From Bacteroidales bacterium (GTDB lineage: Bacteria; Bacteroidota; Bacteroidia; Bacteroidales; UBA932): a DNA stretch of 40,728 nucleotides. Shown here one piece after another: positions 1 to 40,728 of the stretch (its first letter is position 1; every line of letters starts with the position of its first letter). The notes below the pieces were generated by a model. The model saw only the letters and a program-made list of their open reading frames with translations, ran no database searches and was not told the DNA's origin. The position numbers and the translations under genes are program-made. Location: assembly GCA_017423025.1 (NCBI GenBank), contig JAFPGC010000013.1:1-40728 (forward strand), given 5' to 3'.

Positions 1-23
1 AAGTTATAGTTTTTGTTATAGGT

Positions 24-62
24 AAAAAAGAAAAAAGCACTTGCGATTTCTCGTAAGTGCTT
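24..62 (-). terminator. Rho-independent terminator of tRNA-Asn
   Basis: Read on the minus strand, AAGCACTT pairs with AAGTGCTT (arms at 62-55 and 42-35), followed by a run of T residues (36-31) and a further T-rich stretch to about 24. It lies about 10 nt past the 3' end of the minus-strand tRNA-Asn, so it fits a factor-independent terminator for that transcript. Confidence 0.8.
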
Positions 63-72
63 GATTTTGTTG

Positions 73-146
73 CTCCCCCTGTTGGACTTGAACCAACGAC
101 CCTCTGATTAACAGTCAGATGCTCTAACCAACTGAGCTAAGGAGGA
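73..146 (-). tRNA. tRNA-Asn (anticodon GTT)
   Basis: The minus strand folds into a complete cloverleaf. The acceptor stem TCCTCCT (146-140) pairs with AGGGGGA (80-74), with one T-G wobble, and the discriminator is G at 73. There is a D-arm with TAGCTCAG, an anticodon stem around the loop CTGTTAA with anticodon GTT (Asn), and a T-arm with GGTTCAAGTCC. The 3' CCA is not encoded, because GCA is followed by A, so it must be added after transcription. A good promoter lies upstream at 175-205 and a terminator downstream. Confidence 0.95.
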
Positions 147-174
147 ATGTTTCCGCTCTCGTGGAACGGGATTG

Positions 175-205
175 CAAAGGTACAACCTTTTTTGAATTCT
201 CCAAA
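175..205 (-). promoter_or_regulatory. Bacteroidota-type promoter for tRNA-Asn
   Basis: On the minus strand TTTG (205-202) is followed after 19 nt by TACCTTTG (182-175), which matches the Bacteroidota sigma consensus TTTG / TAnnTTTG. It ends 28 nt before the tRNA. Confidence 0.75.
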
Positions 206-250
206 GGTTTTTGAGTTTTTTTTAATAAGAAAACTTACGTATATTTTTAC

Positions 251-258
251 TATCTTTG
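251..258 (+). promoter_or_regulatory. -7 element (TATCTTTG) upstream of the HU-like gene
   Basis: TATCTTTG matches the TAnnTTTG -7 box, 28 nt before the ATG at 287. I see no convincing TTTG at the -33 distance; the region upstream is AT-rich. Confidence 0.5.
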
Positions 259-286
259 TACGATAATCCGTAAATGCCTTACTAGT

Positions 287-1267
287 ATGGATATTGACCT
301 CCTTGCCAAAATGGTGAAAGAAGTGGTGATGGACCACGATGTTGTCACCTTGCCCGGAGTGGGCAGCTTTGTTGCAGAGCTGGTACCGGCCACTTTCGCC
401 GACCGCGGATACACCATCATGCCGCCCTACCGCAAGCTCTATTTCTCTCCCAAGCAAGGGGACGATACGCTTCTGGCAGACCTCTATGCTGCCTCCAACG
501 GCATTTCGCAGGCCGATGCCACCCGCATCCTTACGGATTTCCTGGCCGAGATGAAGGAAGTGCTCAAGGTCAAGAAAACCATCGTTTTCCCGGGCCTCGG
601 CCGCCTCAGGGCCACCATGGAGAATCACTTTTTCTTCGTGGCCGATGAAGATTTGGATATCTATCCCTCCGGCTTCGGCCTGGAGCCCATTTCCCTCAAG
701 ACCCACGAAGAGACCAAGGAAGAGGTGGCGGAAGCTGTGGCCAGCCTGGCCGGCCTCCTGGGGAAGGAGCCCAAAGCCCAACCGGCCCCTCAGCCCGAAC
801 CGGTCCCTCAGCCGGAACCCGTGGCAGAACCTGTGGCAGAACCTGTGGCAGAACCGGAACCGCAGCCTGAACCTGAACCGGAACCCGAGCCTGTAGTGGA
901 GCCCGAACCGACTCCTGAACCCGAGCCCGTGGTAGAGCCTGAACCCGAATCTGAACCCGAGCCTCAGCCGGAACCGGAGCCCGTTGCAGAACCCGAGCCC
1001 GAGCCCGAACCGCAGCCTGAGCCTACTCCCGAACCGGAACCGGAGCCCCAACCGGAACCCCAACCGGTGGTGGAGGAAGAGCCCGAAGAAGCTCCCCGCA
1101 AGAAGAAGAGTAGCGGCTGGAGCAAGTTCTGGGTTTTCATCCTGGTGCTGGTAATCATCGCCCTGGTGCTGGCCATCGCGCTGGTTGCCGTGGGTACTTT
1201 CTTCCCCGAGTGGCTGGATTCCTTCCTGTATAGCCCCGAAGAATACGATATCCTTCACAATATTTAA
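287..1267 (+). CDS. HU-CCDC81-like domain protein with Pro/Glu-rich linker and C-terminal membrane anchor
   Basis: 326 residues. Residues 1-140 resemble the prokaryotic HU-CCDC81 double domain of Bacteroidota, with the motifs [12 protein letters not shown] and [10 protein letters not shown]. Proteins of that family usually combine cytoplasmic HU-like domains with a periplasmic SPOR domain. Residues about 164-264 are a low-complexity linker of Pro-Glu/Pro-Gln repeats. A basic patch ([10 protein letters not shown]) precedes one transmembrane helix at about 281-304, leaving only about 22 residues outside. Inferred topology: HU domains inside, rigid acidic spacer, one membrane pass. The usual C-terminal SPOR domain is absent. 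The role is unknown; possibly it links nucleoid or cytoskeletal elements to the envelope. The start is the first ATG after a TATCTTTG box. It ends 6 nt before the thioesterase gene. Confidence 0.8.
780..1078 (+). repeat. In-frame Pro-Glu (PEP/PQPEP) low-complexity coding repeat
   Basis: About 300 bp of degenerate hexanucleotide-like units coding for alternating Pro and Glu/Gln, with Val/Ala/Thr interruptions. It includes three nearly exact 12-bp tandem copies of GTGGCAGAACCT around 821-855. Codons for Pro and Glu are varied (CCC, CCG, CCT; GAA, GAG), so the repeat is conserved as protein rather than as DNA. Replication slippage could alter the spacer length between strains. Confidence 0.85.
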
Positions 1268-1273
1268 CAAGCT

Positions 1274-2017: not shown

Positions 2018-2021
2018 ACTT

Positions 2022-3707
2022 ATGCATGAACTATTCTTTGGCTACGGTGTAGCGCATACCATTCTGCTGCTGGCATTCGTGATTGGAGTCGGCCTCTATC
2101 TGGGCCGGTTCAAGGTGAAAGGCATCTCCCTGGGCTCCACCTGGATCCTGTTCATGGGCATCCTTATGGGTCACCTGGGCTTTGAGGCCGACCTCACCAT
2201 CCTCCACTTCGTGAAGGAGTTCGGCCTTATCCTCTTCGTCTTTTCCATCGGCCTGCAGGTGGGTCCCGGATTCTTCCACTCCTTCCGCAGCGGCGGTATC
2301 AAGATGAATCTCCTGGCCGTCATGAACATTCTCCTGGCCGTAGTCGTTACCTATGTCATCTCCCTGGTTTCCGGTGAAAAGCTTACCACCATGGTGGGCG
2401 TGATGTCCGGTGCCGTCACCAATACGCCCGGTCTGGGTGCAGCTCAGCAGACCTTTTCGGATCTTTCGGTGTCCGGAGGCAGCAGCGTCCTGGCCGCAGA
2501 TCAGGTTTCCGAGAGCCTGGCATCGGCCTATGCCGTGGCCTATCCCATTGGCGTCATCGGGGTTATTGCCGTCATCATCGTCTTCCGCTCCCTGTTCAAG
2601 ATTGACCATACGAAAGAACTGCAGAAGCTGGAAGATGCCGATAAAAACGCCGAGCATGCCCGCCGCATGCACGTGGCCGTGGAGAATCCCGCCATCTTTG
2701 ACAAAAAGCTCTATGACATCCTTCACGAGTTCGAAGGAGACTATGTGGTTTCCCGCGTGATGAAGGGAGACCAGGTGCTCTTCCCTTCGGCCGATATGGT
2801 CCTTCACGAGGGAGACAAGCTCCTGCTGGTGACTTCGCCCGGTGAGGTGGACCGCCTGCGCATCCTCTTCGGCCAGGAAGTGCCGCTGCATGTGCAGGAC
2901 TGGCAGGAAAAAGACCATACCCTGGTTACCCGCCGCATCACGGTGACCAACTCCAAGCTCACCGGCAAAACCATCAAGGACCTGCGTCTTCGCAGTGCCT
3001 ATGGCGTTAGCGTGACCCGCGTCATCCGTGCCGGCGTGGAGCTGGTAGCCCGTCCCACCCTTTATCTCCAAATGGGAGACGGCCTCATCTGCGTGGGAAC
3101 CCAGGAGAACATCGATCAGGTTACCGGTATTCTGGGGAATTCCAGTGCCGCCCTCAACAAACCCTATCTGGTGCCCATTTTCCTGGGTATTGTGGTAGGT
3201 GTCATCTTCGGCTCCATTCCCTTCCGTTTCCCCGGCATTCCTCAGGCCATCAAGCTGGGCCTGGCCGGCGGTCCCCTCATCATTGCCATCCTGCTGGGAC
3301 ACTGGGGCCCCAAGTACAAGATAACCACTTACACCACCCCCAGTGCCAACCTGATGATCCGCGAAATCGGTATCTCCCTCTTCCTGGCTTCGGTAGGAAT
3401 TGGAGCCGGCGGTAATTTCTGGAGTTCCATCGTGGGCGGCGGTTACTGGTGGATTCTGTACGGCGCCCTTATCACCATAGTGCCGCTTTGCATCACTTTC
3501 GTTGTGGCCCGCGTCGTGTTCCACCTCAATTTCTACCAGATTTGCGGTCTCATCAGCGGCTCCTGCACCAATCCTCCCGTGCTGGCCTTCTCCCAGGGCA
3601 TGTACGGAAGCGACTATGCCTCCATCAACTACGCCACGGTGTATCCGCTGTCCATGTTCATGCGTGTGCTGGTAGCACAGCTTCTTATCGTATTCGCATT
3701 GGGTTAG
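2022..3707 (+). CDS. AspT/YidE/YbjL-type putative transporter with two RCK_C (TrkA-C) domains
   Basis: 561 residues, the standard length for this duplicated family. The N-terminal membrane half (about 1-190) and the C-terminal half (about 380-561) each consist of hydrophobic helices and carry matching motifs: GAVTNTPGLGAAQQ in the first and GSCTNPPVLAFSQ in the second. The middle, about 205-370, holds two soluble RCK_C-like regulatory domains (for example GDKLLLVTSPGEVDRL and GDGLICVGTQENIDQV). The family includes the aspartate/alanine antiporter AspT and E. coli YidE and YbjL, most of unknown substrate. Inner membrane. The gene starts 4 nt after the thioesterase, and the Nudix gene starts 3 nt after its stop, which indicates an operon. 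The substrate is not predictable here. Confidence 0.88.
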   Translation: MHELFFGYGVAHTILLLAFVIGVGLYLGRFKVKGISLGSTWILFMGILMGHLGFEADLTILHFVKEFGLILFVFSIGLQVGPGFFHSFRSGGIKMNLLAVMNILLAVVVTYVISLVSGEKLTTMVGVMSGAVTNTPGLGAAQQTFSDLSVSGGSSVLAADQVSESLASAYAVAYPIGVIGVIAVIIVFRSLFKIDHTKELQKLEDADKNAEHARRMHVAVENPAIFDKKLYDILHEFEGDYVVSRVMKGDQVLFPSADMVLHEGDKLLLVTSPGEVDRLRILFGQEVPLHVQDWQEKDHTLVTRRITVTNSKLTGKTIKDLRLRSAYGVSVTRVIRAGVELVARPTLYLQMGDGLICVGTQENIDQVTGILGNSSAALNKPYLVPIFLGIVVGVIFGSIPFRFPGIPQAIKLGLAGGPLIIAILLGHWGPKYKITTYTTPSANLMIREIGISLFLASVGIGAGGNFWSSIVGGGYWWILYGALITIVPLCITFVVARVVFHLNFYQICGLISGSCTNPPVLAFSQGMYGSDYASINYATVYPLSMFMRVLVAQLLIVFALG

Positions 3708-3710
3708 CCT

Positions 3711-4301
3711 ATGTTGGACCTGGTCTATCCTTCCTCCCCGGCGCCGCTGTATCCCCGGCCGTCCGTTGACAACCCCGGAAAACAGCCCGTTCCCACCGGC
3801 GAAATGCTCCCTTTGGTAGAGCCTAGCGGCCTGGTGTATGGCCAGGCTACCCGTGAGTACTGCCACAGCGGTTCGCACGTGCTGCATCCGGTGGTGCATC
3901 TCCACATCATAGACCATTTCGGCAAGCTTTATCTGCAGAAGCGCTCCATGACCAAGGACCTCCTGCCCGGTTATTGGGACACGGCGGTAGGCGGTCACGT
4001 CAGTTATGGGGAAACCATCCTGGAAGCCCTCTACCGGGAAACTTCCGAAGAACTGGGACTCACAGCCTTCAATCCCATAGGCCTGGGCGCGTACATCTGG
4101 CAGACGCAGCGGGACAACGAATATGTCTTCGTCCACGCCATCCTGGGGCATCCCACCCTTCACCCCAATGCCGAAGAGGTGTCGGAAGGCCGATGGTGGA
4201 CCTTCGAGGAACTGGACAGGGCCATGGGGCAGAACGTCCTTACGCCCAACTTCGAGAGCGAATTCGGGCGCATCAGGGACCGGCTGCTGGCTATGCTATA
4301 G
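3711..4301 (+). CDS. Nudix hydrolase (IDI/YfcD-like)
   Basis: 196 residues. The Nudix box is complete: it begins GHVSYGE, where the first Gly and the Glu are the conserved residues, and continues to REtsEELGL, matching GX5EX7REUXEEXGU at about residues 94-116. The N-terminal extension and the HPVVHLHIIDHFGKLYLQKRS strand resemble the isopentenyl-diphosphate isomerase/YfcD branch of Nudix proteins. Likely a Mg-dependent pyrophosphohydrolase of unknown substrate in the cytoplasm. The start ATG lies 3 nt after the transporter stop. Its last two codons, CTA TAG, form a palindrome that also ends the convergent DUF4922 gene. Confidence 0.88.
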   Translation: MLDLVYPSSPAPLYPRPSVDNPGKQPVPTGEMLPLVEPSGLVYGQATREYCHSGSHVLHPVVHLHIIDHFGKLYLQKRSMTKDLLPGYWDTAVGGHVSYGETILEALYRETSEELGLTAFNPIGLGAYIWQTQRDNEYVFVHAILGHPTLHPNAEEVSEGRWWTFEELDRAMGQNVLTPNFESEFGRIRDRLLAML

Positions 4302-5714
4302 GATTTGTCCCCACGTCTCGTCAATGGCGGCGCGGGCGGCAGAATCGGCCTTCTCGGTGAGGCCGATGTAAGGATCGGAAATCTTTTCCCCCTTGAGGAG
4401 GGCTTTGCGAAGGGCAAGGGCCCTTTCTTTTTGCTCCTGGGGCGGCATCAGGGATATCACGCTCAGAAGATAGTCCTCCATGCCCAGGATGTTTACGGCC
4501 TGCACCTTTCCGTCTTTGACCAGGAATTTGAGCGTGCCGGCATAGCGGCGCGTCCCCTCGTCATAGATTAGGAAGGAAGGCTCGGCAAAGAGGGTGGAGA
4601 TGGTGACGGCTTCAAAGACCAGTTCGTCGTACAGCACGCCATTGTAGTCTATGCGCCCGTCCTGGAAACGGACTTTCTGCGGTCCGGCACCGTCGGAAAC
4701 AATCTCGAACGTAATCTCCTCTCCTGCCTCAATCTCTACTTCCAGGCGGGGCTGGGTGCGCACCAGGCGCCACAGCAGCCGTTCTTCCTGGACTGCCGGC
4801 AGGGTTACGTCCTCAAAGATCTGTTTCAGTGCCTCACCGTCCAGGCGGTCAAAATCCTCTTCCAGGGGCACTACCACGAAGCCTGCCATATCGGCCGCCC
4901 CGGGAAGGATGGAGAAATGGGCGTCTCCCAGGGCGAAGAAGCACTGGGGGTGGGAGGCGCCGCGCAGGGTTACGATGGTGCGGAATTCCCCCTCGCTGCA
5001 ATAGGTGAAGGCGTTGAAGCGGGGCTCGGTTTCCTCGGCCACCAGATTCATGCAGTCCAGGAGCCTGTAGAAGAGCTTGGCCATGGACTTGGACGTCTGG
5101 GCGCGAAGCAGGAAGATGCCGCGGTTGAAGCGTTTGTAGTGGTAAAGTTCGGCGTCCCTGACGGAAGCGATGAACTCCATTTCCTCCGACGTCTGTCCGG
5201 CCCTGGCGCCGCGCAGGAGCCTTTCCGCCGCCCGCTCCAGAGGCATATACCCCTTGGGACAGGCCTGGAAATGGGCGTGCTGCGGCACCGTGGTTCCGCT
5301 GTTGGGACTGTTATAGAAGATGACGTAATTCTCCAGGGAGGAGGCCAGGTCCAGCATGTCCGGGAAACGGTGCCAGATGGTCTGGGGGGCATGGATATCG
5401 CGTGTAATGACCAGATGGTTGGGGAAGATGGGCGCCCGGTTCACCAGAATATTGTATTTGCGGCCCTTGCGGCCCTCGAAGGGCAGGGTGTGCTGGTGCT
5501 CCATGTAATTCTCTTCGCACAGCGGGCAGCCGTGGTCAAAGATGGGAACCCGCCCCGGGTTGGACTGGAGCGTAACCAGGATGCCGCTCAGCGGAAGCGT
5601 CCGCGTGCGTGTGCTCTTGAGGTTCCGGTACTTGGCTGCCACCGCCGGCCACACCGACAGCTGGTCGTGGACAAATTTGTCGATATCTGTTGCCATGGAT
5701 GTAAAGTTACGCAT
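4296..5714 (-). CDS. DUF4922 protein: HIT-like nucleotidyltransferase/phosphorylase fold with a degenerate SpoIID-like tail
   Basis: 472 residues. The N-terminal half resembles the GDP-hexose phosphorylase/GalT-like branch of the HIT superfamily. It contains CPLCEENY (possible metal-binding cysteines), NRAPIFPNHLVI and TVPQHAHFQACP, whose HxHxQ arrangement is the expected catalytic triad. The C-terminal part, from about 385, resembles the start of SpoIID/LytB domains: YAGTLKFLVKDGKVQAVNIL, then GMEDYLLSVISLMPP and EQKERALALRKALL. It then jumps to DPYIGLTEKADSAARAAIDE and TWGQIL and stops, so the conserved Cys/His core and the rest of SpoIID are missing. The first ATG (5714) and a second at about 5696 (MATDIDKF) are both possible starts; neither has a Shine-Dalgarno. 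Function unknown; sugar-nucleotide or phosphate chemistry is inferred. Confidence 0.75.
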   Translation of the reverse strand: MRNFTSMATDIDKFVHDQLSVWPAVAAKYRNLKSTRTRTLPLSGILVTLQSNPGRVPIFDHGCPLCEENYMEHQHTLPFEGRKGRKYNILVNRAPIFPNHLVITRDIHAPQTIWHRFPDMLDLASSLENYVIFYNSPNSGTTVPQHAHFQACPKGYMPLERAAERLLRGARAGQTSEEMEFIASVRDAELYHYKRFNRGIFLLRAQTSKSMAKLFYRLLDCMNLVAEETEPRFNAFTYCSEGEFRTIVTLRGASHPQCFFALGDAHFSILPGAADMAGFVVVPLEEDFDRLDGEALKQIFEDVTLPAVQEERLLWRLVRTQPRLEVEIEAGEEITFEIVSDGAGPQKVRFQDGRIDYNGVLYDELVFEAVTISTLFAEPSFLIYDEGTRRYAGTLKFLVKDGKVQAVNILGMEDYLLSVISLMPPQEQKERALALRKALLKGEKISDPYIGLTEKADSAARAAIDETWGQIL

Positions 5715-5731
5715 TTTTCCGTCATTTTTGC

Positions 5732-5739: not shown

Positions 5740-5746
5740 TGTAATT

Positions 5747-6499
5747 ATGGCAAGCATCGGTATCTTCGATTCCGGAAGCGGAGGATTGTCCGTCTACAGG
5801 GAACTCGTCAAACTGCTCCCTCAGGAGCGTTATATCTATTTCTCGGATAACGCCCACTGCCCCTATGGGGAAAAAACAGCAGAGTATATCCAGGAAAGGG
5901 CCCACGTCATCACGGACATCCTTCTGGGAATGGGGGCCGATATCATAGTCGTCGCCTGCAACACCGCCACCGCCGCCGCCATAGCCTGCCTTAGGGAGGA
6001 TTATCCCGACGTCCCGTTCATAGGTATGGAACCCGCGGTGAAGCCCGCCGCGCTGGGCACCCAGACCGGCGTCATCGGGGTCCTGGCCACCGCCGGCACC
6101 CTCAAAGGTTCCAAATACCTTCATACCCGCGGCCAGTACGAAGACAATGTCCGCATTGTGGAGCATGTGGGGGAGGGCTTCGTGGAACTGGTGGAAAACG
6201 GCGTCCTGGATGGCCCTGAGGCCGAGAAAACCGTAGCCCGTTCCCTTCAGCCCCTTTTGGATAAGGGGGCCGATATCATAGTTCTGGGCTGCACCCATTA
6301 CCCCTTCCTCCAGCCTGTCATCGAGCGGCTGGCCGGTCCGCAGGTCCGGGTCATCGATCCCGCCCCTGCCGTGGCCAGACAGACCTTGCACGTGCTTCAG
6401 GAAAAGGGCATTTCCACCGGGGAAGGTCCCTTCTCCATAGACCTCTATCACTCCGGTGAGCCGGAGTCCCTCCAACGCATATACCAACTGGTCCAATGA
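5747..6499 (+). CDS. murI: Glutamate racemase
   Basis: 250 residues. Converts L- to D-glutamate for peptidoglycan stem peptides in the cytoplasm. The family signature GIFDSGSGGLSV (Asp8) opens the protein. The two catalytic cysteines are C71 in VVACNTAT and C182 in VLGCTHYPF. The ATG follows a TATATTTG box by 7 nt, predicting a nearly leaderless mRNA. The stop TGA overlaps the ATG of the next gene (ATGA at 6496-6499), so the downstream muramidase is likely translationally coupled. Both act on cell-wall components. Confidence 0.95.
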   Translation: MASIGIFDSGSGGLSVYRELVKLLPQERYIYFSDNAHCPYGEKTAEYIQERAHVITDILLGMGADIIVVACNTATAAAIACLREDYPDVPFIGMEPAVKPAALGTQTGVIGVLATAGTLKGSKYLHTRGQYEDNVRIVEHVGEGFVELVENGVLDGPEAEKTVARSLQPLLDKGADIIVLGCTHYPFLQPVIERLAGPQVRVIDPAPAVARQTLHVLQEKGISTGEGPFSIDLYHSGEPESLQRIYQLVQ

Positions 6500-7734
6500 G
6501 ACGCTTCCTCCTTATTGCTATCGGCCTTTTGGCCGCTGCAGGCCTGCAGGCCCAGGTGACCACCGGTCTCGAGGTCCTGTTGGAACATGGGTTCGAACCC
6601 TTGCTGGGTAAGCGCGTGGGGCTGGTTACCAACCCCAGCGGCGTAGACCGGAATTTCCGTTCTACCATCGATATCCTGTACCAAGCGCCCGAAGTGAACC
6701 TGGTGGCCCTGTACGGCCCCGAGCACGGTGTAAGGGGAGACGTTTATGCCGGAGACCACGTGGCCGATGCCACCGACGCCCGCACCGGCCTTCCCGTCTA
6801 TTCCCTATACGGCGCCACGCGGGAACCGACGCCCGAGATGCTCAAAGGCATAGATGTGATGGTGTACGATATCCAGGATGTGGGTACCCGTTGCTATACG
6901 TTCATATCTACCCTGGGTCTGGTGATGCGCGCCTGCGCCCGGGCCGGAATTGAGGTGGTGGTCCTGGACAGGCCCAATCCCCTGGGAGGCAACAAAGTGG
7001 AAGGCTGCCTGGTGGAAGACGGTTACCATTCTTTCGTAAGCCAGTTCAAGATTCCTTTCCTCTATGGCCTTACGGTAGGGGAACTGGCCCGGTTCATCAA
7101 TTTGGAAGGCCTTAACTGCGGCCAGAACGGTAAGCAGGAGCACCTGCATTGCGACCTTACCGTAGTGCGTATGCGCGGCTGGCGGCGGGATATGCTGTAC
7201 AAGGACACCGGCCTTCCCTGGATCCTGCCTTCCCCCAACATCCCGTCCATGCAATCGGCCCTCTGCTATGGTGCTTCGGGCATTGCAGGCGAGTTTGGCC
7301 ATCTGAATGTCGGAGTAGGGTACACCATCCCCTTCGAGACCTTTGCGGCCGAGTGGATAGACGCCGACCTTCTGCTGGACCGGCTTAACAGCTACCAGAT
7401 CCCCGGCGTAGCCTTCCGCACCATCCACTACAAGCCCGTCTCCGGCAGCAATAAGGATATGCTCCTGCACGGCGTACAGTTTACTTTTACAGATTATGAG
7501 GCCTGTCCGGTGAGTCTGGTACAGTTCTATGTTTTACAGGCAGTTAACGAACTTTATCCCGACCGGAATCCCTATCCGCTCAAGAACACGTCGATGCTGG
7601 ATAAGGTCTGTGGCACGGATTATGTGAGAAGGGCTTTTGGAAAGCAGTTGAAGGTCGCGGATATCGTTGATTATTGGAACAAGGATGTTGAGGCTTTCAA
7701 ACGGCTTTCCCAGCTTTATTATTTATACCGTTAA
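6496..7734 (+). CDS. Secreted exo-beta-N-acetylmuramidase NamZ family (DUF1343)
   Basis: 412 residues with a signal peptide (MRRFLLIAIGLLAAAGLQAQ, cleavage near 20). The mature part matches DUF1343, characterised in Bacillus subtilis NamZ as an exo-N-acetylmuramidase that releases MurNAc from peptidoglycan fragments. Visible family segments include GLVTNPSGVDRN, YGPEHGVRG, YDIQDVGTRCYTFISTL, VLDRPNPLGG and PSPNIPSMQSAL. The conserved Glu of YGPEHG and the Asp residues of YDIQDVG fit the expected active site. It overlaps murI by 4 nt, so production of D-Glu and recycling of wall fragments are linked in one transcript. Location periplasmic or outer-membrane by signal peptide; no lipobox seen. 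Confidence 0.85.
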   Translation: MRRFLLIAIGLLAAAGLQAQVTTGLEVLLEHGFEPLLGKRVGLVTNPSGVDRNFRSTIDILYQAPEVNLVALYGPEHGVRGDVYAGDHVADATDARTGLPVYSLYGATREPTPEMLKGIDVMVYDIQDVGTRCYTFISTLGLVMRACARAGIEVVVLDRPNPLGGNKVEGCLVEDGYHSFVSQFKIPFLYGLTVGELARFINLEGLNCGQNGKQEHLHCDLTVVRMRGWRRDMLYKDTGLPWILPSPNIPSMQSALCYGASGIAGEFGHLNVGVGYTIPFETFAAEWIDADLLLDRLNSYQIPGVAFRTIHYKPVSGSNKDMLLHGVQFTFTDYEACPVSLVQFYVLQAVNELYPDRNPYPLKNTSMLDKVCGTDYVRRAFGKQLKVADIVDYWNKDVEAFKRLSQLYYLYR

Positions 7735-7752
7735 CTTAAAAACTTTAGTGCT

Positions 7753-17836: not shown

Positions 17837-17848
17837 GCGAATTAATGC

Positions 17849-21205: not shown

Positions 21206-21210
21206 GGGGC

Positions 21211-32228: not shown

Positions 32229-32235
32229 ATAGATT

Positions 32236-32763
32236 ATGAAACGTAGTCTCATTATAGCCTTTGCGCTGGTTACCCTGGTGAGCAGCTGCGACTTCGTGCG
32301 CACGCTGGCCGGCCGTCCCACATCGGCCCAGTTGGAACAAATCCGTCAGCAGAGGATGGCGGCCGAGGAGGCCCGTCACCAGGCCACCCTGGATTCCATG
32401 GATCGCGTGCAGAAGCACATGGCCGATTCCCTGGAAGCCCTGGAGAAGTACCTGCTGGATTCCCTTACCCAGGCCAAGGGGACCGTGCTGAACCCGTCCA
32501 AGATGGGAGGTCTCTACACCACCAAGCTGGAAGCCAAGTACTGCATTGTGGTGGGCGCCTTCCGCAACCGCTATTATGCAGAGCGCAAGCTCAAGGAGTG
32601 TAACAACGCCGGTTACACGGCCACCATCATCAGCTTCCGCAATGGACTCATGGCCGTTTCGGTTTGCCCTTCCAACAGCCTGGCCGAAACCCTCAAAACC
32701 CTCAAGCAGCTCCGTGGAACGGGTATTTGCCCGCCCGACAGTTGGATTCTGATCAACGAATGA
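32236..32763 (+). CDS. SPOR-domain lipoprotein
   Basis: 175 residues. Lipoprotein signal with lipobox VSSC (Cys18). A charged helical stretch (about 32-80, rich in Glu, Gln and Asp) leads to a SPOR domain at about 97-170: KYCIVVGAFRNRYYAERKLKE, then NGLMAVSVCPSNS. SPOR domains bind glycan strands stripped of stem peptides at division sites. Outer-membrane attached, probably acting at the septum. It carries a perfect Shine-Dalgarno. Its stop overlaps the start of the next gene (ATGA), so the two proteins are coupled. Confidence 0.85.
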   Translation: MKRSLIIAFALVTLVSSCDFVRTLAGRPTSAQLEQIRQQRMAAEEARHQATLDSMDRVQKHMADSLEALEKYLLDSLTQAKGTVLNPSKMGGLYTTKLEAKYCIVVGAFRNRYYAERKLKECNNAGYTATIISFRNGLMAVSVCPSNSLAETLKTLKQLRGTGICPPDSWILINE

Positions 32764-34115
32764 TGAAGCGTCTGTTAACGGCCCTCGCCGCCCTTCTCTT
32801 TCTGGGACCGGGCCTGGGCGCCCAGTATAGAACCACCTTGCAGGACCTGGACGACTCCGAAACCGTCCGGGCCCTTAAAGAACATGTTGCAGCCCTCTCG
32901 GCAGCAGAATTGGAAGGCCGCCGGGCTGGCAGTGAAGGTGAAAGGATGGCGGCCGATTATCTGGAATCCTGGCTCAGGGAATACGGCATCGACGTCCTCA
33001 CCACCGGCAACGAATTTGGCGTGGCAGTGGGAGGAGACACCCTCCAGTCCCGTAATGTCACCGGTCTCCTCCAGGGTTGGGACAAGAACCTGAACAAGCA
33101 TTATATAGTCATCGGTGCCCGCATGGACAATCTGGGCATGGATACACTCATGGTAAACGGGGAGCCCACCCGCCGCATCTATTACGGGGCCAACGGCAAT
33201 GCTTCCGGCATGGCCATGCTGCTGGAACTGGCCCAGAAGCTTTCCTATGCCCGCACCCTCCTTCGCCGCAGCATCCTGTTCGTGGGCTTCGGCGCTTCGC
33301 AGGAAACGTTTGCCGGCTCCTGGTATTTCCTCCACCGCGCCTTCGCCGAGGATGCATCCAACATTGACGCCATGATCAACCTGGATATGCTGGGGACATC
33401 GGCCGGCGGCTTTTATGCCTTTACCTCCTCCAATGAGGATATGAATACCATCGTATCGGCCCTGAAGGGAGAACTGCTGCCCGTGCAGGCGCAGCTTACC
33501 AACCAGCAGCCTTATCCCTCGGACCATACCGTGTTTTACGATGCGGAGATTCCGTCCGTGCTGTTTACTACGGGCCGCTATCCGGAGCACGGGACCGGTG
33601 AAGACACGTATGGTATCATAGATTTTCAGGGAATGGAAGGTGAGCTGGAGTACATCTACAGCTATGTTCAGCGCCTTTGCAATGGCCAGAAACCTCTGTT
33701 CCGGAACGATTCGGTCAAGCCCAAGGAATCATCGGTTTCGGCCGATGTGTTCGCTTACAGTGATGTGGACGTCAAGCCCATGTTCCTGAATTCCCCGGAT
33801 CCCGCCACCTTTATGGAGAGATGGGTATACCAGTATGTGAAATATCCCAAATATGCTGCCGAGAATGGTATCCAGGGCCGCGTGCTGGTGAATTTTGTGA
33901 TTAACGAGAAGGGAGAAGTCCAGGATGTCTCCATCTCCCGCGGCGTGCATTACACCCTGGATGACGAAGCCATCCGCGTGGTATCGGCCTCTCCCAAATG
34001 GCGCCCCGGTCGCTTCCATGGCAAGAAAGTGAAGACGGCCATGACCATAGCCGTAGACTTCAAACTGGACAAGAAGAAAGGCACCTTCGGAATCAACGGA
34101 ATAACGATTAAATAA
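32760..34115 (+). CDS. M28-fold pseudo-peptidase fused to a TonB C-terminal domain
   Basis: 451 or 452 residues, depending on which of two adjacent ATG codons starts it. Signal peptide (MKRLLTALAALLFLGPGLGA). Residues 30-300 follow the M28 aminopeptidase fold (ATG at 32763 as residue 1), but the metal site is broken. HxD reads R120-M-D122; the GADDNASG motif reads GANGNASG (Asp to Asn144); the EE pair reads S179-Q180. Only D208 (INLDML) and H255 (PSDHTVFY) remain. Residues about 345-451 match a TonB C-terminal domain: VKYPKYAAENGIQGRVLVNF, VINEKGEVQDVSISRGV, WRPGRFHGKKVKTAMTI. It begins at the overlapping ATGA of the SPOR gene and ends 3 nt before leuS. An envelope-binding, non-catalytic role is inferred. 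Confidence 0.82.
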   Translation: MMKRLLTALAALLFLGPGLGAQYRTTLQDLDDSETVRALKEHVAALSAAELEGRRAGSEGERMAADYLESWLREYGIDVLTTGNEFGVAVGGDTLQSRNVTGLLQGWDKNLNKHYIVIGARMDNLGMDTLMVNGEPTRRIYYGANGNASGMAMLLELAQKLSYARTLLRRSILFVGFGASQETFAGSWYFLHRAFAEDASNIDAMINLDMLGTSAGGFYAFTSSNEDMNTIVSALKGELLPVQAQLTNQQPYPSDHTVFYDAEIPSVLFTTGRYPEHGTGEDTYGIIDFQGMEGELEYIYSYVQRLCNGQKPLFRNDSVKPKESSVSADVFAYSDVDVKPMFLNSPDPATFMERWVYQYVKYPKYAAENGIQGRVLVNFVINEKGEVQDVSISRGVHYTLDDEAIRVVSASPKWRPGRFHGKKVKTAMTIAVDFKLDKKKGTFGINGITIK

Positions 34116-34118
34116 TAT

Positions 34119-36875
34119 ATGGATTACAATTTTGCAGAGATTGAAAGAAAGTGGCAGGCCGAGTGGGCCCAAAACAAGACCTACAAGGCCGAAGTGAATT
34201 CTGCCAAACCCAAATACTATGTGCTGGACATGTTCCCGTACCCCAGCGGCGCGGGCCTGCACGTAGGACATCCGCTGGGATACATCGCCAGCGATATCTT
34301 CGCCCGTTACAAGCGCCTGAAGGGCTTTAACGTGCTGCACCCCATGGGATACGACGCCTTCGGCCTTCCCGCCGAGCAGTATGCCATCCAGACGGGTCAG
34401 CACCCCGAGAAGACCACGCACGACAACGTGGCCCGTTACCGCAGCCAGCTGGACCGCATCGGTTTCTCCTTCGACTGGGACCGTGAGTTCCGCACCTGCG
34501 ACCCCGACTATTACAAATGGACCCAGTGGGCCTTCCTCAAGATGTTCGGCTCCTGGTACGACAATAAGGTTCAGAAGGCCCGTCCCATCGAGGAACTCGT
34601 AGCGGCCTTCGAGCAGGGCGGTTCCGCCGCCGTGGACGCTGCCTGCAGCGAAGGTCCTGCCTTCACTGCAGATCAGTGGAAGGCTTTCTCCGAGAAGGAA
34701 AAGGCCGATGCACTCATGCGTTATCGCATTGCCTATCAGGGAGAAAGCACTGTTAACTGGTGCCCGGCCCTGGGTACCGTTCTGGCCAATGACGAGGTGA
34801 AGGACGGCTATTCCGAGCGTGGCGGCTATCCCGTCTTCCAGAAGAAGATGACGCAGTGGCAGTTGCGCGTGAGCGCCTATGCCGCCCGTCTGCTGGACGG
34901 TCTGGACCGCCTGGACTGGACGGATTCCCTCAAGGAGATGCAGCGCAACTGGATTGGCCGCAGCGAGGGAGCCGAGATGGTTTTCAAGGTGGAGTGCGAC
35001 GGCGCCGCGCATGACGTCACCATCTTTACCACTCGTGCCGATACCATCTTCGGAGTCACCTTCATGGTCCTGGCTCCCGAGAGCGAGTGGGTGGAGAAAC
35101 TGACATCGGCCTCCCAGAAGGCCGATGTGGAGGCTTACCTGGAGCAGGTGAAGAAGAAGACGGAGCGCGAAAGGATGGCCGGCAAGGCCGTCACGGGCGT
35201 GTTCTCCGGTTCTTACGGCATCAATCCGGTCACCGGCGAAAAGGTGCCCGTGTGGATTGCCGAATACGTGCTGGCCGGTTACGGAACCGGTGCCATCATG
35301 GCCGTTCCCGCCCACGACAGCCGCGACTATGCCTTCGCCAAGAAGTTCGGCCTGCCCATCGTCCCCGTCATTGAAGGGGCCGATGTCTCCGAGCAGAGCG
35401 TAGACGCCAAGGAGGGCATCATGTGCAACAGCGGCTTCCTCAACGGGCTGCCCGTGAAGAAAGCCATTCCCGCCGCCATCAAGTATGTGGACGAACATGG
35501 AATAGGCCACCGCAAGGTCAATTACCGCATCCGCGACGCCATTTTCTCCCGCCAGCGCTATTGGGGAGAACCTTTCCCTATTTATTATAAGGACGGAATC
35601 GCCACGCCCGTGGCTTTTGAGGATCTGCCGCTCACCCTGCCGGAAATTGACCAGTACAAACCCACCGAGGACGGTCAGCCGCCGCTGGCCCGCGCCAAGG
35701 ACTGGACCTACAGAGGCTATCCGCTGGAAAAGAGCACCATGCCCGGTTTCGCCGGTTCCAGCGCCTACTACCTCCGCTATATGGATCCCCACAACGGGGA
35801 GGCCCTCGTAAGCCGTGAGGCCGATGAATACTGGCGTAACGTAGATTTGTATGTGGGTGGAACCGAGCATGCTACCGGTCACCTCATCTACAGCCGCTTC
35901 TGGAATAAATTCCTCTTTGACCTGGGTTATGTGTGCGAAGACGAACCCTTCTGCAAGCTCATCAACCAGGGCATGATCCAGGGCCGTTCCAACTTTGTAT
36001 ATATGATTCCCGGCACCAACAAGTTCGTATCGGCCGGTCTCAAGGACCAGTACGAAACCATTCCCGTGCACGTGGATGTGAATATCGTATACAACGACAA
36101 GCTGGATCTGGAGGCCTTCCGTGCCTGGCGCCCGGACTACAAGGATGCCGAATTCATCCTGGAAGACGGCGAATACATCTGCGGCTGGGCCATCGAAAAG
36201 ATGTCCAAGAGCATGTACAACGTGGTGAACCCGGACAAGATCTGCGACACCTACGGGGCCGATACGCTCCGCCTGTACGAGATGTTCCTGGGCCCCATCG
36301 AGCAGGCCAAGCCCTGGGATACCAAGGGCATCGACGGCGTCAACCGCTTCCTCAAGAAGTTCTGGCGCCTGTTCTGGGACCGCGAGAAGTGGCTGGTGAC
36401 CGACGATGAACCCACGAAGGAAGAACTCAAGGCCCTGCACAAGCTTATCGGCAAGGAGCAGGAAGACATCGAGGCCTTCTCCTATAATACGACAATTTCG
36501 GCCTTCATGATAGCCCTGAACGACCTGGGCAATTGCTCCAAGCGCGCCATTCTGGAGCCTCTGACGGTGCTTCTGAGCCCCTTCGCCCCGCACATTGCCG
36601 AGGAACTGTGGCATCAGCTGGGCCATGAGGATTCGGTGGTTTACGCCGCTTTCCCCGAGTATAAGGAAGAGCTGGCGGCCGACAATACCGTCAAGTACCC
36701 GGTTTCCTTCAACGGCAAGACGCGCTTCTTCCTGGATGCTTCGGCATCGGCCACTCCGGCCGAGGTGGAGGCCCAGGTGCGAAGCCACGAGAAAACGCCC
36801 CAGTACGTGGGTGAGCAATCCATCGTGAAGGTGATTGTGGTGCCCGGACGAATTGTAAACGTGGTTCTCAAATAG
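34119..36875 (+). CDS. leuS: Leucyl-tRNA synthetase
   Basis: 918 residues. Charges tRNA-Leu. The HIGH motif is HVGH at 48-51 ([15 protein letters not shown]) and KMSKS at 694-698. The editing (CP1) domain spans about 220-430 with [20 protein letters not shown] and the [16 protein letters not shown] segment, whose Asp is needed for proofreading. An insertion near 150-200 ([16 protein letters not shown]) is of the kind seen in Bacteroidota LeuRS. It starts 3 nt after the pseudo-peptidase gene. A 10-bp inverted repeat built from two ATCGGCC motifs lies inside it (35104-35129). Confidence 0.96.
35104..35129. repeat. Inverted pair of ATCGGCC motifs inside leuS
   Basis: ACATCGGCCT at the left pairs perfectly with AGGCCGATGT at the right, separated by six bases. 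Within coding sequence it encodes an unremarkable stretch of the editing domain. Similar inverted pairs lie at 4344-4367, 12809-12834 and 19870-19887. Confidence 0.8.
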
Positions 36876-36881
36876 TTGTTT

Positions 36882-37796
36882 ATGGTTCCCAAGAAAGTTC
36901 TCATAACCGTTTTTGACTACCTGATCATTACTGTAGGCACCCTGCTCTTCGTGATGGCCTGGACCTCCTTCCTGCTTCCGAACAACATGATCGACGGCGG
37001 CATGACGGGTGCATCGGCCCTGCTGTCCATGGTGACGGGCGTTTCGGTGGATATCTGGTATTTTGGAATCAATGTGGGTCTCCTGATCCTGGCCTGGATA
37101 GTGCTGGGACGCGGATTCGGCATCAAAACGGTTTATTCCATCCTGCTTTCCACCTTGCTTTTCCGCATACTGGGCAACGAAGAATTCGTTTGGCTGCAGT
37201 CGGTGGAGGGGCAGCCCCTGTATGTAGGGGACGGTATACTGGTTCCTATCATCGGCGGTCTTCTGGAGGCGGTGGGCCTTTCGCTGATTCTCATCCGCGG
37301 CGGATCCACGGGTGGAACGGATATTTTGGCCCTGATCGTAAATAAGTTCTGGCCTATTACCCTGGGCCGCTTCTATGTGATGGCCGACCTTGTCATCATC
37401 ACGCTCCTTATCTTTGTTCCCGGCCACTGCTTTACGGATGTGGTCTATGGTTACATCACCATGGGCGTGTGTGCCTATGTGCTGGATCTCATCATGCTGG
37501 GTAAGGAATCGGCCGTGCAGGTACTCATCTTCTCCAATAAGTACGAAGAAATCGGCAATTTCGTTACCCGGGAAATGGGACGCGGTGTGACGGCTCTCAA
37601 GGCCGTGGGCTGGTATACCCAGGAAGACCGTGAGGTGTTGCTGGTCATGATTCGCAAGACCGAAATGTCCCAGCTGGTGAAAGCCGTAAAGGACGTGGAC
37701 CCTAAGGCATTTGTCACAGTGGTTCCCGCCAACAGTGTATTCGGAGAAGGTTTCGGTGAGATGAAAACGGGTCTTCCCAAGAAAAAGAACAAATAG
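36882..37796 (+). CDS. YitT-family membrane protein (paralogue 1)
   Basis: 304 residues. Several transmembrane helices in the first 190 residues (IITVGTLLFVMAWTSFLLP, INVGLLILAWIVLGRGFGI, VGLSLILIRGG, FYVMADLVIITLLIFVP). The glycine-rich signature GGSTGGTDILALI is near 142-154, and a soluble DUF2179 domain follows (about 210-295, VQVLIFSNKYEEIGNF, EMGRGVTALKAVGWYT, DREVLLVMIRK). Transport or sensing function unknown. The ATG at 36882 is preferred over a TTG at 36876. It lies 6 nt after leuS. Confidence 0.87.
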   Translation: MVPKKVLITVFDYLIITVGTLLFVMAWTSFLLPNNMIDGGMTGASALLSMVTGVSVDIWYFGINVGLLILAWIVLGRGFGIKTVYSILLSTLLFRILGNEEFVWLQSVEGQPLYVGDGILVPIIGGLLEAVGLSLILIRGGSTGGTDILALIVNKFWPITLGRFYVMADLVIITLLIFVPGHCFTDVVYGYITMGVCAYVLDLIMLGKESAVQVLIFSNKYEEIGNFVTREMGRGVTALKAVGWYTQEDREVLLVMIRKTEMSQLVKAVKDVDPKAFVTVVPANSVFGEGFGEMKTGLPKKKNK

Positions 37797-37805
37797 TATT
37801 ATAAT

Positions 37806-38780: not shown

Positions 38781-38827
38781 GCTCTTTTACAATATAGGAT
38801 ACGCGCCCATCGGCCACCCCGAAAACC

Positions 38828-39346: not shown

Positions 39347-39372
39347 GAGATTAAACCGGTCCGGAGGACGCG

Positions 39373-40071
39373 TTATCCTTCAATCCCTTTCCAGGAAGCT
39401 GGAACAGGGGCAGTTACATCCACCTCGGTCTTTTTGACGGGGTGGATGAATTGTATATGCCGGGCCAGCAGGCTGATGCCGCCGTCCGGATTGGAACGCT
39501 TGGCGCCATACTTGAGGTCTCCCTTGATGGGGGAGCCCATGTGGGCCAGCTGGCAGCGGATCTGGTGATGCCGGCCGGTATACAGTTCCACTTCCAGGAG
39601 GAAATAACGGTCGGTGGTCTGGATAAGGGTGTATTTGAGTTTGGCCTCTTTGCCGTTTTTGGCTACGTAGGATTTGTTCTGGGCCTCGTTGCGCACCAGG
39701 AAGTCGGTAAGTATATCGCTGTCTTTTGGAGGCCGATTGGCCGTGAGAGCCCAATAAGTCTTGTGGATCTCTCCTTTGCGGAGCATCTCGTTGAGGCGCT
39801 CCAGAGCCTTGGAGGTTTTGGCAAACAGAACCACACCGCTCACGGGCCGGTCCAGCCGGTGGGGGACTCCCATGAACACCTGCCCGGGCTTGCCGTCGCG
39901 CTGGGCAATGAAAGCCTTGAGCGTCTCGCTCAGGGGTTCGTCGCCCGTCTTGTCGCCCTGCACGATTTCGCCCGTCCGCTTGTTGAAAATCAGCAAGTGG
40001 TTATCTTCCAGCAGGATTCTCTGTTCAAGGTCCCGGTACTCTTCCGGGCTCAAGGTTCTGTAAACGCCCAT
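39373..40071 (-). CDS. RluA-family pseudouridine synthase
   Basis: 232 residues. Isomerises uridine in rRNA or tRNA. The catalytic Asp74 is in GVPHRLDRPVSGVVLFAKT, and the family segment LYTGRHHQIRCQLAHMGSPIKGDLKYG lies near 165-190. It lacks an N-terminal S4 domain, like short RluA/TruC types. The start ATG at 40071 is 7 nt after a TATCTTTG box. The exact RNA target is not determinable. Confidence 0.9.
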   Translation of the reverse strand: MGVYRTLSPEEYRDLEQRILLEDNHLLIFNKRTGEIVQGDKTGDEPLSETLKAFIAQRDGKPGQVFMGVPHRLDRPVSGVVLFAKTSKALERLNEMLRKGEIHKTYWALTANRPPKDSDILTDFLVRNEAQNKSYVAKNGKEAKLKYTLIQTTDRYFLLEVELYTGRHHQIRCQLAHMGSPIKGDLKYGAKRSNPDGGISLLARHIQFIHPVKKTEVDVTAPVPASWKGIEG

Positions 40072-40078
40072 AGTGCTG

Positions 40079-40086
40079 CAAAGATA
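40079..40086 (-). promoter_or_regulatory. -7 element (TATCTTTG) of the pseudouridine synthase gene, predicted leaderless
   Basis: TATCTTTG on the minus strand, 7 nt before the ATG at 40071. No TTG at the -33 distance. Confidence 0.5.
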
Positions 40087-40156
40087 GCACTTTTTCCCGG
40101 AATGGGTGAGTGGCATAGGACTTGCAGGACAAAGTTTTGATAAACACTTAACTGTT

Positions 40157-40591
40157 ATGAAACGCTTGTTTTTAATCCCCGCCCTTGTGCTGGTAGTCGC
40201 CTGTGGAACCATTAACAATACTCCCCAGCAGATGGAAGATCCGGTAAATATTGGATATAGCACCGTTGACAGGAAGGATTTGACGACGTCCGTTTCTGTC
40301 GTGAAAGCTCAGGAGGACTTCACCCCTTACCGCGATATCTATGAAATGATCCAAGGCAAGTGTGCCGGTGTAGATGTGGATGGCACCAAAGTAACCATAC
40401 GTGGCGTGAACTCCATCAATTCTTCCACCGATCCGTTGTTTGTGGTGGATGGTGTTCCCCAGTCCGGAGGAGTAAGTTGGATCTCTCCGAACGATGTCAA
40501 ATCCATTACTGTACTGAAGGATGCCGCCTCCTGCGCCATCTACGGAAGCCAGGGTGCCAATGGCGTCATTTTGATTGACCTGAAAAAGTAA
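40157..40591 (+). CDS. Stand-alone TonB-dependent receptor plug-domain lipoprotein
   Basis: 144 residues. Lipoprotein signal with lipobox VVAC (Cys16), then a plug-domain core: IYEMIQGKCAGVDVDGTKVTIRG, NSINSSTDPLFVVDGVP, WISPNDVKSITVLKDAASCAIYGSQGANGVILIDLK. These match the plug of SusC-type receptors (the VDGV and IYGSRGANGVI signatures), but no barrel follows: the gene stops and the next feature is a tRNA. Such single plugs exist in Bacteroidota; their job is unknown. It would sit on the periplasmic face of the outer membrane. No consensus promoter visible upstream. Confidence 0.85.
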   Translation: MKRLFLIPALVLVVACGTINNTPQQMEDPVNIGYSTVDRKDLTTSVSVVKAQEDFTPYRDIYEMIQGKCAGVDVDGTKVTIRGVNSINSSTDPLFVVDGVPQSGGVSWISPNDVKSITVLKDAASCAIYGSQGANGVILIDLKK

Positions 40592-40609
40592 AAAAAACCG
40601 CCATTATTT

Positions 40610-40641
40610 TTTGGTAGTTTATAAAAAATGACGTACATTTG
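40610..40641 (+). promoter_or_regulatory. Promoter of tRNA-Pro
   Basis: TTTG (40610-40613), 20-nt spacer, TACATTTG (40634-40641), 12 nt before the tRNA. A full Bacteroidota consensus. Confidence 0.8.
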
Positions 40642-40653
40642 CAGTCCCAAATT

Positions 40654-40726
40654 CTGGATGTAGCGCAGTTGGTAGCGCACCTGGTTAGGGACCAGGAGGT
40701 CGCTGGTTCAAGTCCAGTCATCCAGA
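40654..40726 (+). tRNA. tRNA-Pro (anticodon AGG)
   Basis: Complete cloverleaf of 73 nt. Acceptor CTGGATG pairs with CATCCAG; D-stem GCGC/GCGC; anticodon stem CCTGG/CCAGG around the loop TTAGGGA, giving anticodon AGG; T-arm GCTGG-TTCAAGT-CCAGT. C1-G72 and A73 are proline identity elements. CCA is not encoded. A34 is unusual for a bacterial tRNA-Pro, which normally has G, U or C at position 34. The last two bases of the window lie just past it. Confidence 0.9.
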
Positions 40727-40728
40727 CA

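Follow-up and report, generated by a model that had tools for sequence, protein, structure and literature searches.

The heptamer GGCCGAT, together with its reverse complement ATCGGCC, is a probable recognition word, spread through the genome of a Bacteroidales bacterium and held at the level of DNA, and is no by-product of codon usage or protein sequence. We analysed it in a stretch of 40,728 nucleotides (positions 1-40728 of contig C3; hereafter the window) and in the assembly to which it belongs (genome G000; 2,388,874 bases in 88 contigs, 87% complete). A preliminary description of the window had reported about 73 copies, 39 as ATCGGCC and 34 as GGCCGAT, and an exact count on the + strand gave precisely these figures. 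In 100 dinucleotide-preserving shuffles of the window only 8.61 copies occurred on average (maximum 17), and an order-2 Markov model, under which ATCGGCC was the top over-represented 7-mer, expected 10.7. A maximal-order Markov model of the window did not make ATCGGCC outstanding, because the motif inflates its own 6-mers. A codon-preserving shuffle, proposed in that description as a check, left 13.6 copies (maximum 25) in the window's called genes, and one that also kept dinucleotides left 25.9 (maximum 37; 200 shuffles each), both far below the 69 observed. The description was also right about its rare-codon examples, TTA TCG GCC and, twice, GGC CGA TGN: TTA, TCG and CGA occur at 1.4, 6.5 and 1.6 per 1000 codons in these genes. 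Near-neighbour words, said to be rarer, are so in the window (TTCGGCC 23, CTCGGCC 16, TGCCGAT 13, GGCCGAC 9), but in the genome sample TTCGGCC occurs roughly twice as often as expected (227 versus ~100).

The enrichment extends across the genome, as had been proposed for checking. The whole assembly contains 4,066 copies (1,980 + 2,086), one per 587 bp or 1.70 per kb, 12.8 times as many as the 318 copies of the reversed, not complemented, word. A sample of 334,203 bases (the window and 20 further stretches, L109-L128) held 606 copies against 73 expected from an order-2 model with the motif masked. Within the 268 genes (297,684 nt) called in this sample by a simple script based on codon usage, we counted 567 copies, compared with a mean of 109.9 and a maximum of 131 in 100 within-gene synonymous shuffles. 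The corresponding z-score of GGCCGAT, 44.6, was the highest among 8,130 heptamers (standard deviation of z 2.11). Even a stricter shuffle that keeps junction dinucleotides, and moves little, reached only 238.5 (maximum 256 of 60). The copies fall in different reading frames, as first described: sense registers 0, 1 and 2 held 25, 7 and 277 copies (3.2, 3.1 and 54.6 after shuffling) and the antisense registers 97, 20 and 141 (40.5, 3.1 and 5.4), so that all six register/strand classes are enriched, by 2.3- to 26-fold.

As the sense register that spells Ala-Asp, a frequent pair in proteins, accounts for 277 of the 567 genic copies, one might suspect codon, dipeptide or mutation bias, or a signal acting in RNA. 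We regard such an origin as highly improbable. Every register/strand class exceeds its synonymous shuffles, Ser TCG is retained far better within the motif than outside it (see below), and congeners outside one clade show no excess. Codon and dipeptide bias are ruled out by the synonymous and dinucleotide-keeping shuffles, and an RNA-level role by sense and antisense copies of similar order (496/392 in G000, 150/167 in G019 and 101/144 in G028). Copies are present at 1.90 per kb in called genes and 1.23 per kb outside. Their spacing in the G000 sample is Poisson-like (coefficient of variation 1.02 over 587 gaps), with no regular spacing, and stretches of more than 3 kb free of the motif (8 versus 5.5 expected) were uninformative on recently acquired islands lacking the word. 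In the clade that uses GGCCGAT, flanking bases showed no strong extension past the heptamer; mainly, C is avoided after it. Of the 1,022 copies sampled from G000, overlap with the palindrome ATCGGCCGAT accounts for 21 cases. As a separate observation, heptamers containing GATC are depleted in G000 genes relative to synonymous shuffling (CGATCAG 14 versus 81.8, GATCGTG 7 versus 62.8, TGATCGA 10 versus 62.0), a pattern that looks as if GATC were avoided.

Motif copies were preferentially retained between species in most comparisons made. At the gyrA loci of group A, five close species (L039, L098, L034, L031 and L032), pairs of ~90% identity kept, for example, 24 of 32, 26 of 33 and 29 of 35 copies, and other 7-mers were kept about half of the time. 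Columns invariant in all rows were also more frequent for the motif than for 110 control words in group A (10/31 versus 280/1919), group D (5/36 versus 175/2248) and group E (7/40 versus 136/1421). A codon-matched test, in which the codon was fixed and the amino acid unchanged, covered ten species pairs from groups A, B, D and E; group C (L048/L051/L053) was left out of this and of the invariant-column comparison. Ser TCG was kept in 126 of 138 cases within the motif versus 166 of 308 elsewhere, Gly GGC in 99 of 104 versus 2768 of 3741, Asp GAT in 106 of 126 versus 1069 of 1664, and Ile ATC in 85 of 94 versus 2952 of 3656. For Ala GCC, the figures were 124/135 in the antisense and 114/127 in the sense register versus 4015/4837 elsewhere (p 0.053 for the sense register; as pairs were counted in both directions, p-values of this test are optimistic). 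Among 94 one-substitution states at motif columns, position 7 was the most frequently changed (42, of which 31 were T to C) and position 3 was never changed.

To place the motif among relatives, a genome collection was scanned with the window's GyrA, and 80 of 161 confirmed relatives were kept. These are recorded as Bacteroidales or Bacteroidia bacteria, with one Prevotella, and many of the records name the rumen or some other stomach or gut site of ruminants. In a GyrA tree of 81 rows, which includes row L108 (internal stop, long branch; not relied on), the window lies inside a 37-row clade with a support of 100 in the Shimodaira-Hasegawa-like approximate likelihood ratio test. We compared all heptamers with synonymous shuffles in 78 of the 80 loci, two being too short. 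In 20 of the 35 clade loci scanned, no heptamer ranked above ATCGGCC, and in 5 more it reached z-scores of at least 4.8 without being top; in the other 10 its z-score was 2.7-3.7, one of them (L046) being topped by TGCCGAT. Outside the clade, 32 of 43 loci were given no z-score, their called genes holding fewer than 7 copies, and among the 11 scored only L068 exceeded 2.7 (3.6). This locus shows a mild excess of both ATCGGCA (10 versus 1.7) and ATCGGCC (12 versus 4.0), possibly an early stage of the motif's rise. Whole-genome counts of ATCGGCC in 36 congeners ranged from 103 to 3,333, with 3,333 in G019, 2,598 in G028, 1,795 in G005 and 1,571 in G003. The two richest genomes overall, G000 and G019 (91% complete), are metagenome-assembled genomes (MAGs). 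Enrichment is thus concentrated in one clade of one genus, conceivably the GTDB genus Cryptobacteroides. Another word, CATCGAC/GTCGATG, appeared enriched in other congeners under a Markov model and was rejected, as synonymous shuffles did not place it near the top.

Related words are enriched in other lineages. In G292, the genome of locus L046, both TGCCGAT (106 versus 21.2 in synonymous shuffles) and GGCCGAT (54 versus 17.6) are over-represented. Its whole genome contains 2,678 copies of ATCGGCA against 326 of the control word, and 24 other rows had 444-1,532, among which G019 and G300, with identical counts, are probably one genome. Three loci whose GyrA is 67-69% identical to that of the window (L100, L102 and L103) belong to genomes with the dialect TCCCGAC, present in 1,166, 1,357 and 1,145 copies against 266, 334 and 287 for controls; 11 other genomes tested had 57-400. 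In the G285 sample (L190-L195 and L102), TCCCGAC occurred 75 times versus 6.0 in synonymous shuffles and was the sole standout among the 64 NNCCGAN words. A purine follows it in 79 of 80 copies, making the octamer TCCCGACR. G117, from another family of the order, favours TGCCGAC (69 versus 16.1, z-score 12.8, with a standard deviation of 1.32 across heptamers). Most of the other genomes sampled from the order, once each, gave no dialect signal. Across 247 genomes of the order, TCCCGAC/GTCGGGA reached at most 851 copies, and its ratio to the control up to ~7 (G180, 633 versus 85); the reversed-word ratio is a rough null, so the dialect claims rest on synonymous shuffles instead. The choice of genomes for the heptamer sample depended partly on their GTCGGGA counts, so that this sample is not random for the order; as this holds for G117, G257, G053 and G064, the order-wide reach is a lead and no census. 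All strong dialect words (GGCCGAT, TGCCGAT, TCCCGAC and TGCCGAC) carry CCGA at the same place. Possible re-spelling of GGCCGAT to TGCCGAT in place was noted at 8 of 71 sites aligned between the clade and G292, versus 2 of 179 in three comparisons among GGCCGAT genomes, a weak hint from non-independent rows. Together, a DNA-level force has acted genome-wide in one clade, and its target changes by single letters with CCGA kept.

We next consider orientation, with GC skew and the majority gene strand as proxies for replication polarity along contig stretches. The lack of strong strand bias in the preliminary description holds, as none of six genomes showed consistent polarity. Copies on the G-rich and C-rich strand numbered 466/490 in G000, 196/181 in G019 and 140/133 in G028, and further genomes were equally even (56/59, 41/39 and 35/40). 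Examined per 5 kb, G000 and G028 showed weak correlations that differ in sign (rho -0.27, p 0.005, and +0.29, p 0.08, respectively), and G019 showed none. In G056, from another family of the order, ATCGGCC is strand-uneven on contigs (224 forward, 383 reverse), unlike in the motif-rich clade. Neighbouring copies tend to alternate: of 978 neighbouring pairs at least 8 bp apart in G000, 561 had opposite orientations (57.4%, p 4.6e-6), compared with a mean of 43.5% and a maximum of 54.9% for 141 control heptamers, and in G019 200 of 353 did (56.7%, p 0.014). Alternation was not significant in G028 (140/264), G292 (59/111), G285 (41/73) and G117 (43/69, p 0.053). Likewise, orientation counts per 5 kb were under-dispersed in G000 (0.66, p 0.002) and borderline in G019 (0.71, p 0.06), where 190 controls gave a mean of 1.29 and a minimum of 0.75; they were not under-dispersed in G028 (0.96), G292 (1.15) and G117 (0.94). 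A value of 0.45 (p 0.015) was obtained from 21 selected gyrA loci of the clade, whose rows are related and hence non-independent. The alternation of neighbours hints that whatever reads the motif is directional.

Which machine might read the word was approached through gene families. Among DNA methyltransferase families, PF00145 occurred in 4 of 37 genomes (including G003), PF01555 in 9 of 37 (8 above cut-off; including G005 and G028) and PF02384 in 13 of 40. No match to any of these families was obtained in G000 or G019, which are MAGs of 87% and 91% completeness, and PF02086, PF07669 and MmeI-like families were not searched. In two motif-rich genomes a PF01555 methyltransferase lies ~6-11 kb from ComEC (G028:C22 and G005:C44). 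Competence genes, another check proposed at the outset, gave a divided answer. ComEC is present in 36 of 37 genomes, including the window's own, and DprA in 16 of 16 tested, but both also occur in motif-poor congeners and so fail to explain the difference in motif content, and the pilus or type II secretion assembly ATPase PF00437 was not above cut-off in the motif-rich genomes tested.

As to the AddAB helicase-nuclease, all 13 genomes tested encode an AddB-like protein with a PDDEXK_1 domain, and 11 of the 13 gave a further, AddA-like match, that of G000 being slightly below the family cut-off; domains were checked for one protein of each kind. The AddA-like protein of G019 matches solved RecB and AddA chains, whereas the AddB-like protein, compared by sequence with solved structures, matched none. 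The AddB-like protein of G117 is very divergent, with 16-20% identity to the others. Going by where the two families match, the genes resembling addA and addB lie apart in all five genomes tested from the motif-rich clade (G000, G005, G019, G028 and G292) and are adjacent in G003, G013, G016, G030 and G032. In a tree of AddB, the same five group together with G003 as sister. As G003 already has a raised motif count, the split, if relevant, came after the motif's rise had begun.

All copies in the window are listed in Table 1 together with gyrA, which served as the anchor for fetching relatives and building the tree and is not part of the motif. The window has tRNA genes at both ends (72-146 and 40654-40727; Asn and Pro), a common situation at places where repeats interrupt an assembly. 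Two large open reading frames on the + strand (15911-17845 and 18941-21463) had no Pfam match; in all likelihood they are shadow frames of genes encoded on the opposite strand.

Table 1. Motif copies and anchor gene in the window. The strand of a copy is that on which ATCGGCC reads 5' to 3'.
Feature	Position	Strand	Remark
gyrA (DNA gyrase subunit A)	27297..29837	+	anchor gene
ATCGGCC copy	511..517	-	exact word match
ATCGGCC copy	640..646	-	exact word match
ATCGGCC copy	2247..2253	+	exact word match
ATCGGCC copy	2522..2528	+	exact word match
ATCGGCC copy	2789..2795	-	exact word match
ATCGGCC copy	4188..4194	-	GGC CGA TGN, Gly-Arg register, rare CGA
ATCGGCC copy	4344..4350	+	close opposite pair with 4361
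ATCGGCC copy	4361..4367	-	close opposite pair with 4344
ATCGGCC copy	4890..4896	+	exact word match
ATCGGCC copy	5935..5941	-	exact word match
ATCGGCC copy	6268..6274	-	exact word match
ATCGGCC copy	6520..6526	+	exact word match
ATCGGCC copy	6762..6768	-	exact word match
ATCGGCC copy	7254..7260	+	exact word match
ATCGGCC copy	8958..8964	+	TTA TCG GCC (Leu-Ser-Ala), rare codons
ATCGGCC copy	9591..9597	-	exact word match
ATCGGCC copy	10416..10422	-	exact word match
ATCGGCC copy	10984..10990	+	exact word match
ATCGGCC copy	11227..11233	+	exact word match
ATCGGCC copy	12334..12340	+	exact word match
ATCGGCC copy	12809..12815	-	close opposite pair with 12828
ATCGGCC copy	12828..12834	+	close opposite pair with 12809
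ATCGGCC copy	13106..13112	+	exact word match
ATCGGCC copy	13169..13175	-	exact word match
ATCGGCC copy	15470..15476	+	exact word match
ATCGGCC copy	16248..16254	-	exact word match
ATCGGCC copy	16430..16436	+	exact word match
ATCGGCC copy	17097..17103	-	close opposite pair with 17126
ATCGGCC copy	17126..17132	+	close opposite pair with 17097
ATCGGCC copy	17774..17780	+	exact word match
ATCGGCC copy	18129..18135	+	exact word match
ATCGGCC copy	19018..19024	-	exact word match
ATCGGCC copy	19109..19115	+	exact word match
ATCGGCC copy	19871..19877	+	close opposite pair with 19880
ATCGGCC copy	19880..19886	-	close opposite pair with 19871
ATCGGCC copy	20120..20126	+	exact word match
ATCGGCC copy	21052..21058	-	exact word match
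ATCGGCC copy	21223..21229	-	exact word match
ATCGGCC copy	21673..21679	+	exact word match
ATCGGCC copy	22262..22268	-	exact word match
ATCGGCC copy	22371..22377	+	exact word match
ATCGGCC copy	22890..22896	+	exact word match
ATCGGCC copy	23088..23094	+	exact word match
ATCGGCC copy	24808..24814	+	exact word match
ATCGGCC copy	24894..24900	-	exact word match
ATCGGCC copy	25398..25404	+	exact word match
ATCGGCC copy	25446..25452	+	exact word match
ATCGGCC copy	25995..26001	+	exact word match
ATCGGCC copy	26835..26841	-	exact word match
ATCGGCC copy	26958..26964	-	exact word match
ATCGGCC copy	28377..28383	+	exact word match
ATCGGCC copy	29343..29349	-	GGC CGA TGN, Gly-Arg register, rare CGA, inside gyrA
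ATCGGCC copy	30595..30601	-	exact word match
ATCGGCC copy	31773..31779	-	exact word match
ATCGGCC copy	32322..32328	+	exact word match
ATCGGCC copy	32421..32427	-	exact word match
ATCGGCC copy	32951..32957	-	exact word match
ATCGGCC copy	33398..33404	+	exact word match
ATCGGCC copy	33455..33461	+	exact word match
ATCGGCC copy	33740..33746	-	exact word match
ATCGGCC copy	33983..33989	+	exact word match
ATCGGCC copy	34703..34709	-	exact word match
ATCGGCC copy	35105..35111	+	close opposite pair with 35120
ATCGGCC copy	35120..35126	-	close opposite pair with 35105
ATCGGCC copy	35378..35384	-	exact word match
ATCGGCC copy	35819..35825	-	exact word match
ATCGGCC copy	36029..36035	+	exact word match
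ATCGGCC copy	36257..36263	-	exact word match
ATCGGCC copy	36746..36752	+	exact word match
ATCGGCC copy	37013..37019	+	exact word match
ATCGGCC copy	37508..37514	+	exact word match
ATCGGCC copy	38809..38815	+	exact word match
ATCGGCC copy	39731..39737	-	exact word match

As an explanation we tentatively favour a self tag that may work like the DNA uptake sequences (DUS) of Neisseriaceae and the uptake signal sequences (USS) of Pasteurellaceae. A conserved DNA-handling machine would read GGCCGAT directionally, which would lead to the alternation of the two orientations; DNA carrying the word would preferentially be taken up and/or recombined, and copies would build up by molecular drive. The word might then limit transformation to kin while dialects drift apart. 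The likeness to DUS and USS lies in thousands of copies of a short asymmetric word per 2-3 Mb genome, in dialects with a conserved core, a two-dialect genome (here G292, with TGCCGAT and GGCCGAT) and the presence of ComEC and DprA. In contrast to the 9-12 bases of DUS and USS, the word here has 7 (8), and it belongs to another phylum. The portions of PMC3630211 drawn on here give 943 to 5,918 copies per genome for DUS dialects, a common CTG core and one genome with two dialects. What favours uptake is that uptake or recombination of tagged DNA lifts thousands of sites by itself, whereas a Chi site needs selection copy by copy. Several points weigh against this reading. Retention was at background from L048 to L051 (6/12 versus 0.51), from L048 to L053 (4/10 versus 0.38) and from L047 to L042 (10/21 versus 0.55), and invariant columns in group B were as frequent in the motif as in controls (10/28 versus 329/981). 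G257, G053 and G064 were only moderately enriched, with signals of like shape, and ComEC and DprA, as said, are equally present in motif-poor congeners. PF00437 exceeded the cut-off in 1 of 16 genomes, the motif-poor G016 (pilin families were not searched); this near absence makes the known type of DUS/USS receptor, a minor pilin, unlikely, and a type IV pilin is probably not the reader of the motif. We are aware of no uptake experiment with members of this group, and DUS as known to us neither show orientation alternation nor give a reason for it.

The main rival, which we consider rather unlikely, is a Chi-like signal: AddAB, starting from a DNA break, would read GGCCGAT in one orientation, stop degrading and load RecA, and both orientations would be needed around any point, hence a local balance. 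Like the Chi sites of AddAB and RecBCD, the word is short and asymmetric and its reader likely directional, and AddA- and AddB-like genes are present in nearly all genomes tested; an asymmetric 7-base word with drifting ends would suit a housekeeping reader. Neighbour alternation in G000 and G019 and the under-dispersion in G000 fit as well, and the separation of addA and addB in the rich clade, adjacent in its sister and outgroups, is suggestive only, being one event. Yet AddAB-like genes occur equally in motif-poor congeners, the AddB-like protein of G117 has diverged far from the rest, alternation fails significance in G028, G292, G285 and G117, and the dispersion in G028 is close to one. 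There is also no consistent replication-strand polarity, other dialects being equally even, although an excess of Chi on one strand is usual and perhaps not universal; the part of PMC5443536 used here describes Chi as often far commoner on the lagging-strand template. The motif is, moreover, far denser than Chi in E. coli. That genome has ~1,000 Chi copies. The preliminary description had set the word apart from both Chi and the FtsK orienting polar sequences (KOPS). KOPS are likewise short, asymmetric and iterated but strongly polar towards the terminus, and we reject them, given no polarity to GC skew or gene strand; the separation from Chi is less secure, as alternation keeps a Chi-like role alive.

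The same description had likened the word to DUS and to the highly iterated palindrome HIP1 (GCGATCGC) and alternate HIPs of cyanobacteria. A DNA-level motif of this general kind is largely borne out by the exclusion of codon and dipeptide bias, the genome-wide spread, the lack of consistent strand polarity and the dialects; the methylase branch of the HIP1 idea found no support from PF00145, PF01555 and PF02384 in the two richest genomes. Elhai reportedly proposed that HIP1 arose by methylation-guided mismatch repair, and the motif here could be a similar by-product around an orphan DNA methyltransferase. Some motif-rich genomes do carry methyltransferases (PF01555 in G028 and G005, PF00145 in G003), and with 1,702 copies per Mb the iterated word, replaced in some relatives, falls within the HIP1 range; the consulted part of PMC4390886 gives 300-2,700 per Mb and other words in place of HIP1 in some lineages. 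But HIP1 is a palindrome associated with orphan methyltransferases, whereas GGCCGAT is asymmetric, the three families lack a match in the two richest genomes (incomplete MAGs, searched for these three methylase families), and the CCGA core is kept across families, unlike methylases, which come and go. We therefore hold this origin to be quite improbable. A site for a chromosome-organising, segregation or defence protein, the last marking self against a nuclease, with each copy selected, appears unlikely too. It requires no known reader and suits the even, Poisson-like spread through genic and intergenic DNA, but the copies lack regular spacing and orientation alternation is unexpected for a plain binding site.

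The motif is thus a proven member of neither DUS nor Chi. Over the order as a whole, we consider it possible, without yet holding it probable, that Bacteroidales share a recognition system in which a directional, vertically inherited machine, involving neither a pilin DUS receptor nor an orphan methylase, reads a heptamer with a CCGA core. The system would be faint or absent in many lineages and would have run away to at least 1,000 copies in a few (GGCCGAT, TGCCGAT, TCCCGACR and TGCCGAC), each serving as a self tag. No paper in the open-access library searched contains GGCCGAT or ATCGGCC as whole words, and the literature, as far as it was surveyed, offered nothing of this kind for Bacteroidales or Bacteroidetes, be it on uptake words or on over-represented ones, and named no Chi spelling for Bacteroidales. 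To our knowledge, iterated words with known or suspected roles come from Neisseriaceae, Pasteurellaceae and cyanobacteria. A word this strong in one clade, with dialects elsewhere in the order, is a natural experiment on how such words originate, spread and are re-spelled. If it is Chi-like, it would provide Chi spellings for an order with none named in the surveyed part of the literature; if it is an uptake tag, it would show that a major bacterial group of the gut and rumen exchanges DNA selectively with its own kind; and if the system is order-wide, each lineage would carry its own self tag, a possible barrier to gene exchange in the gut and rumen.

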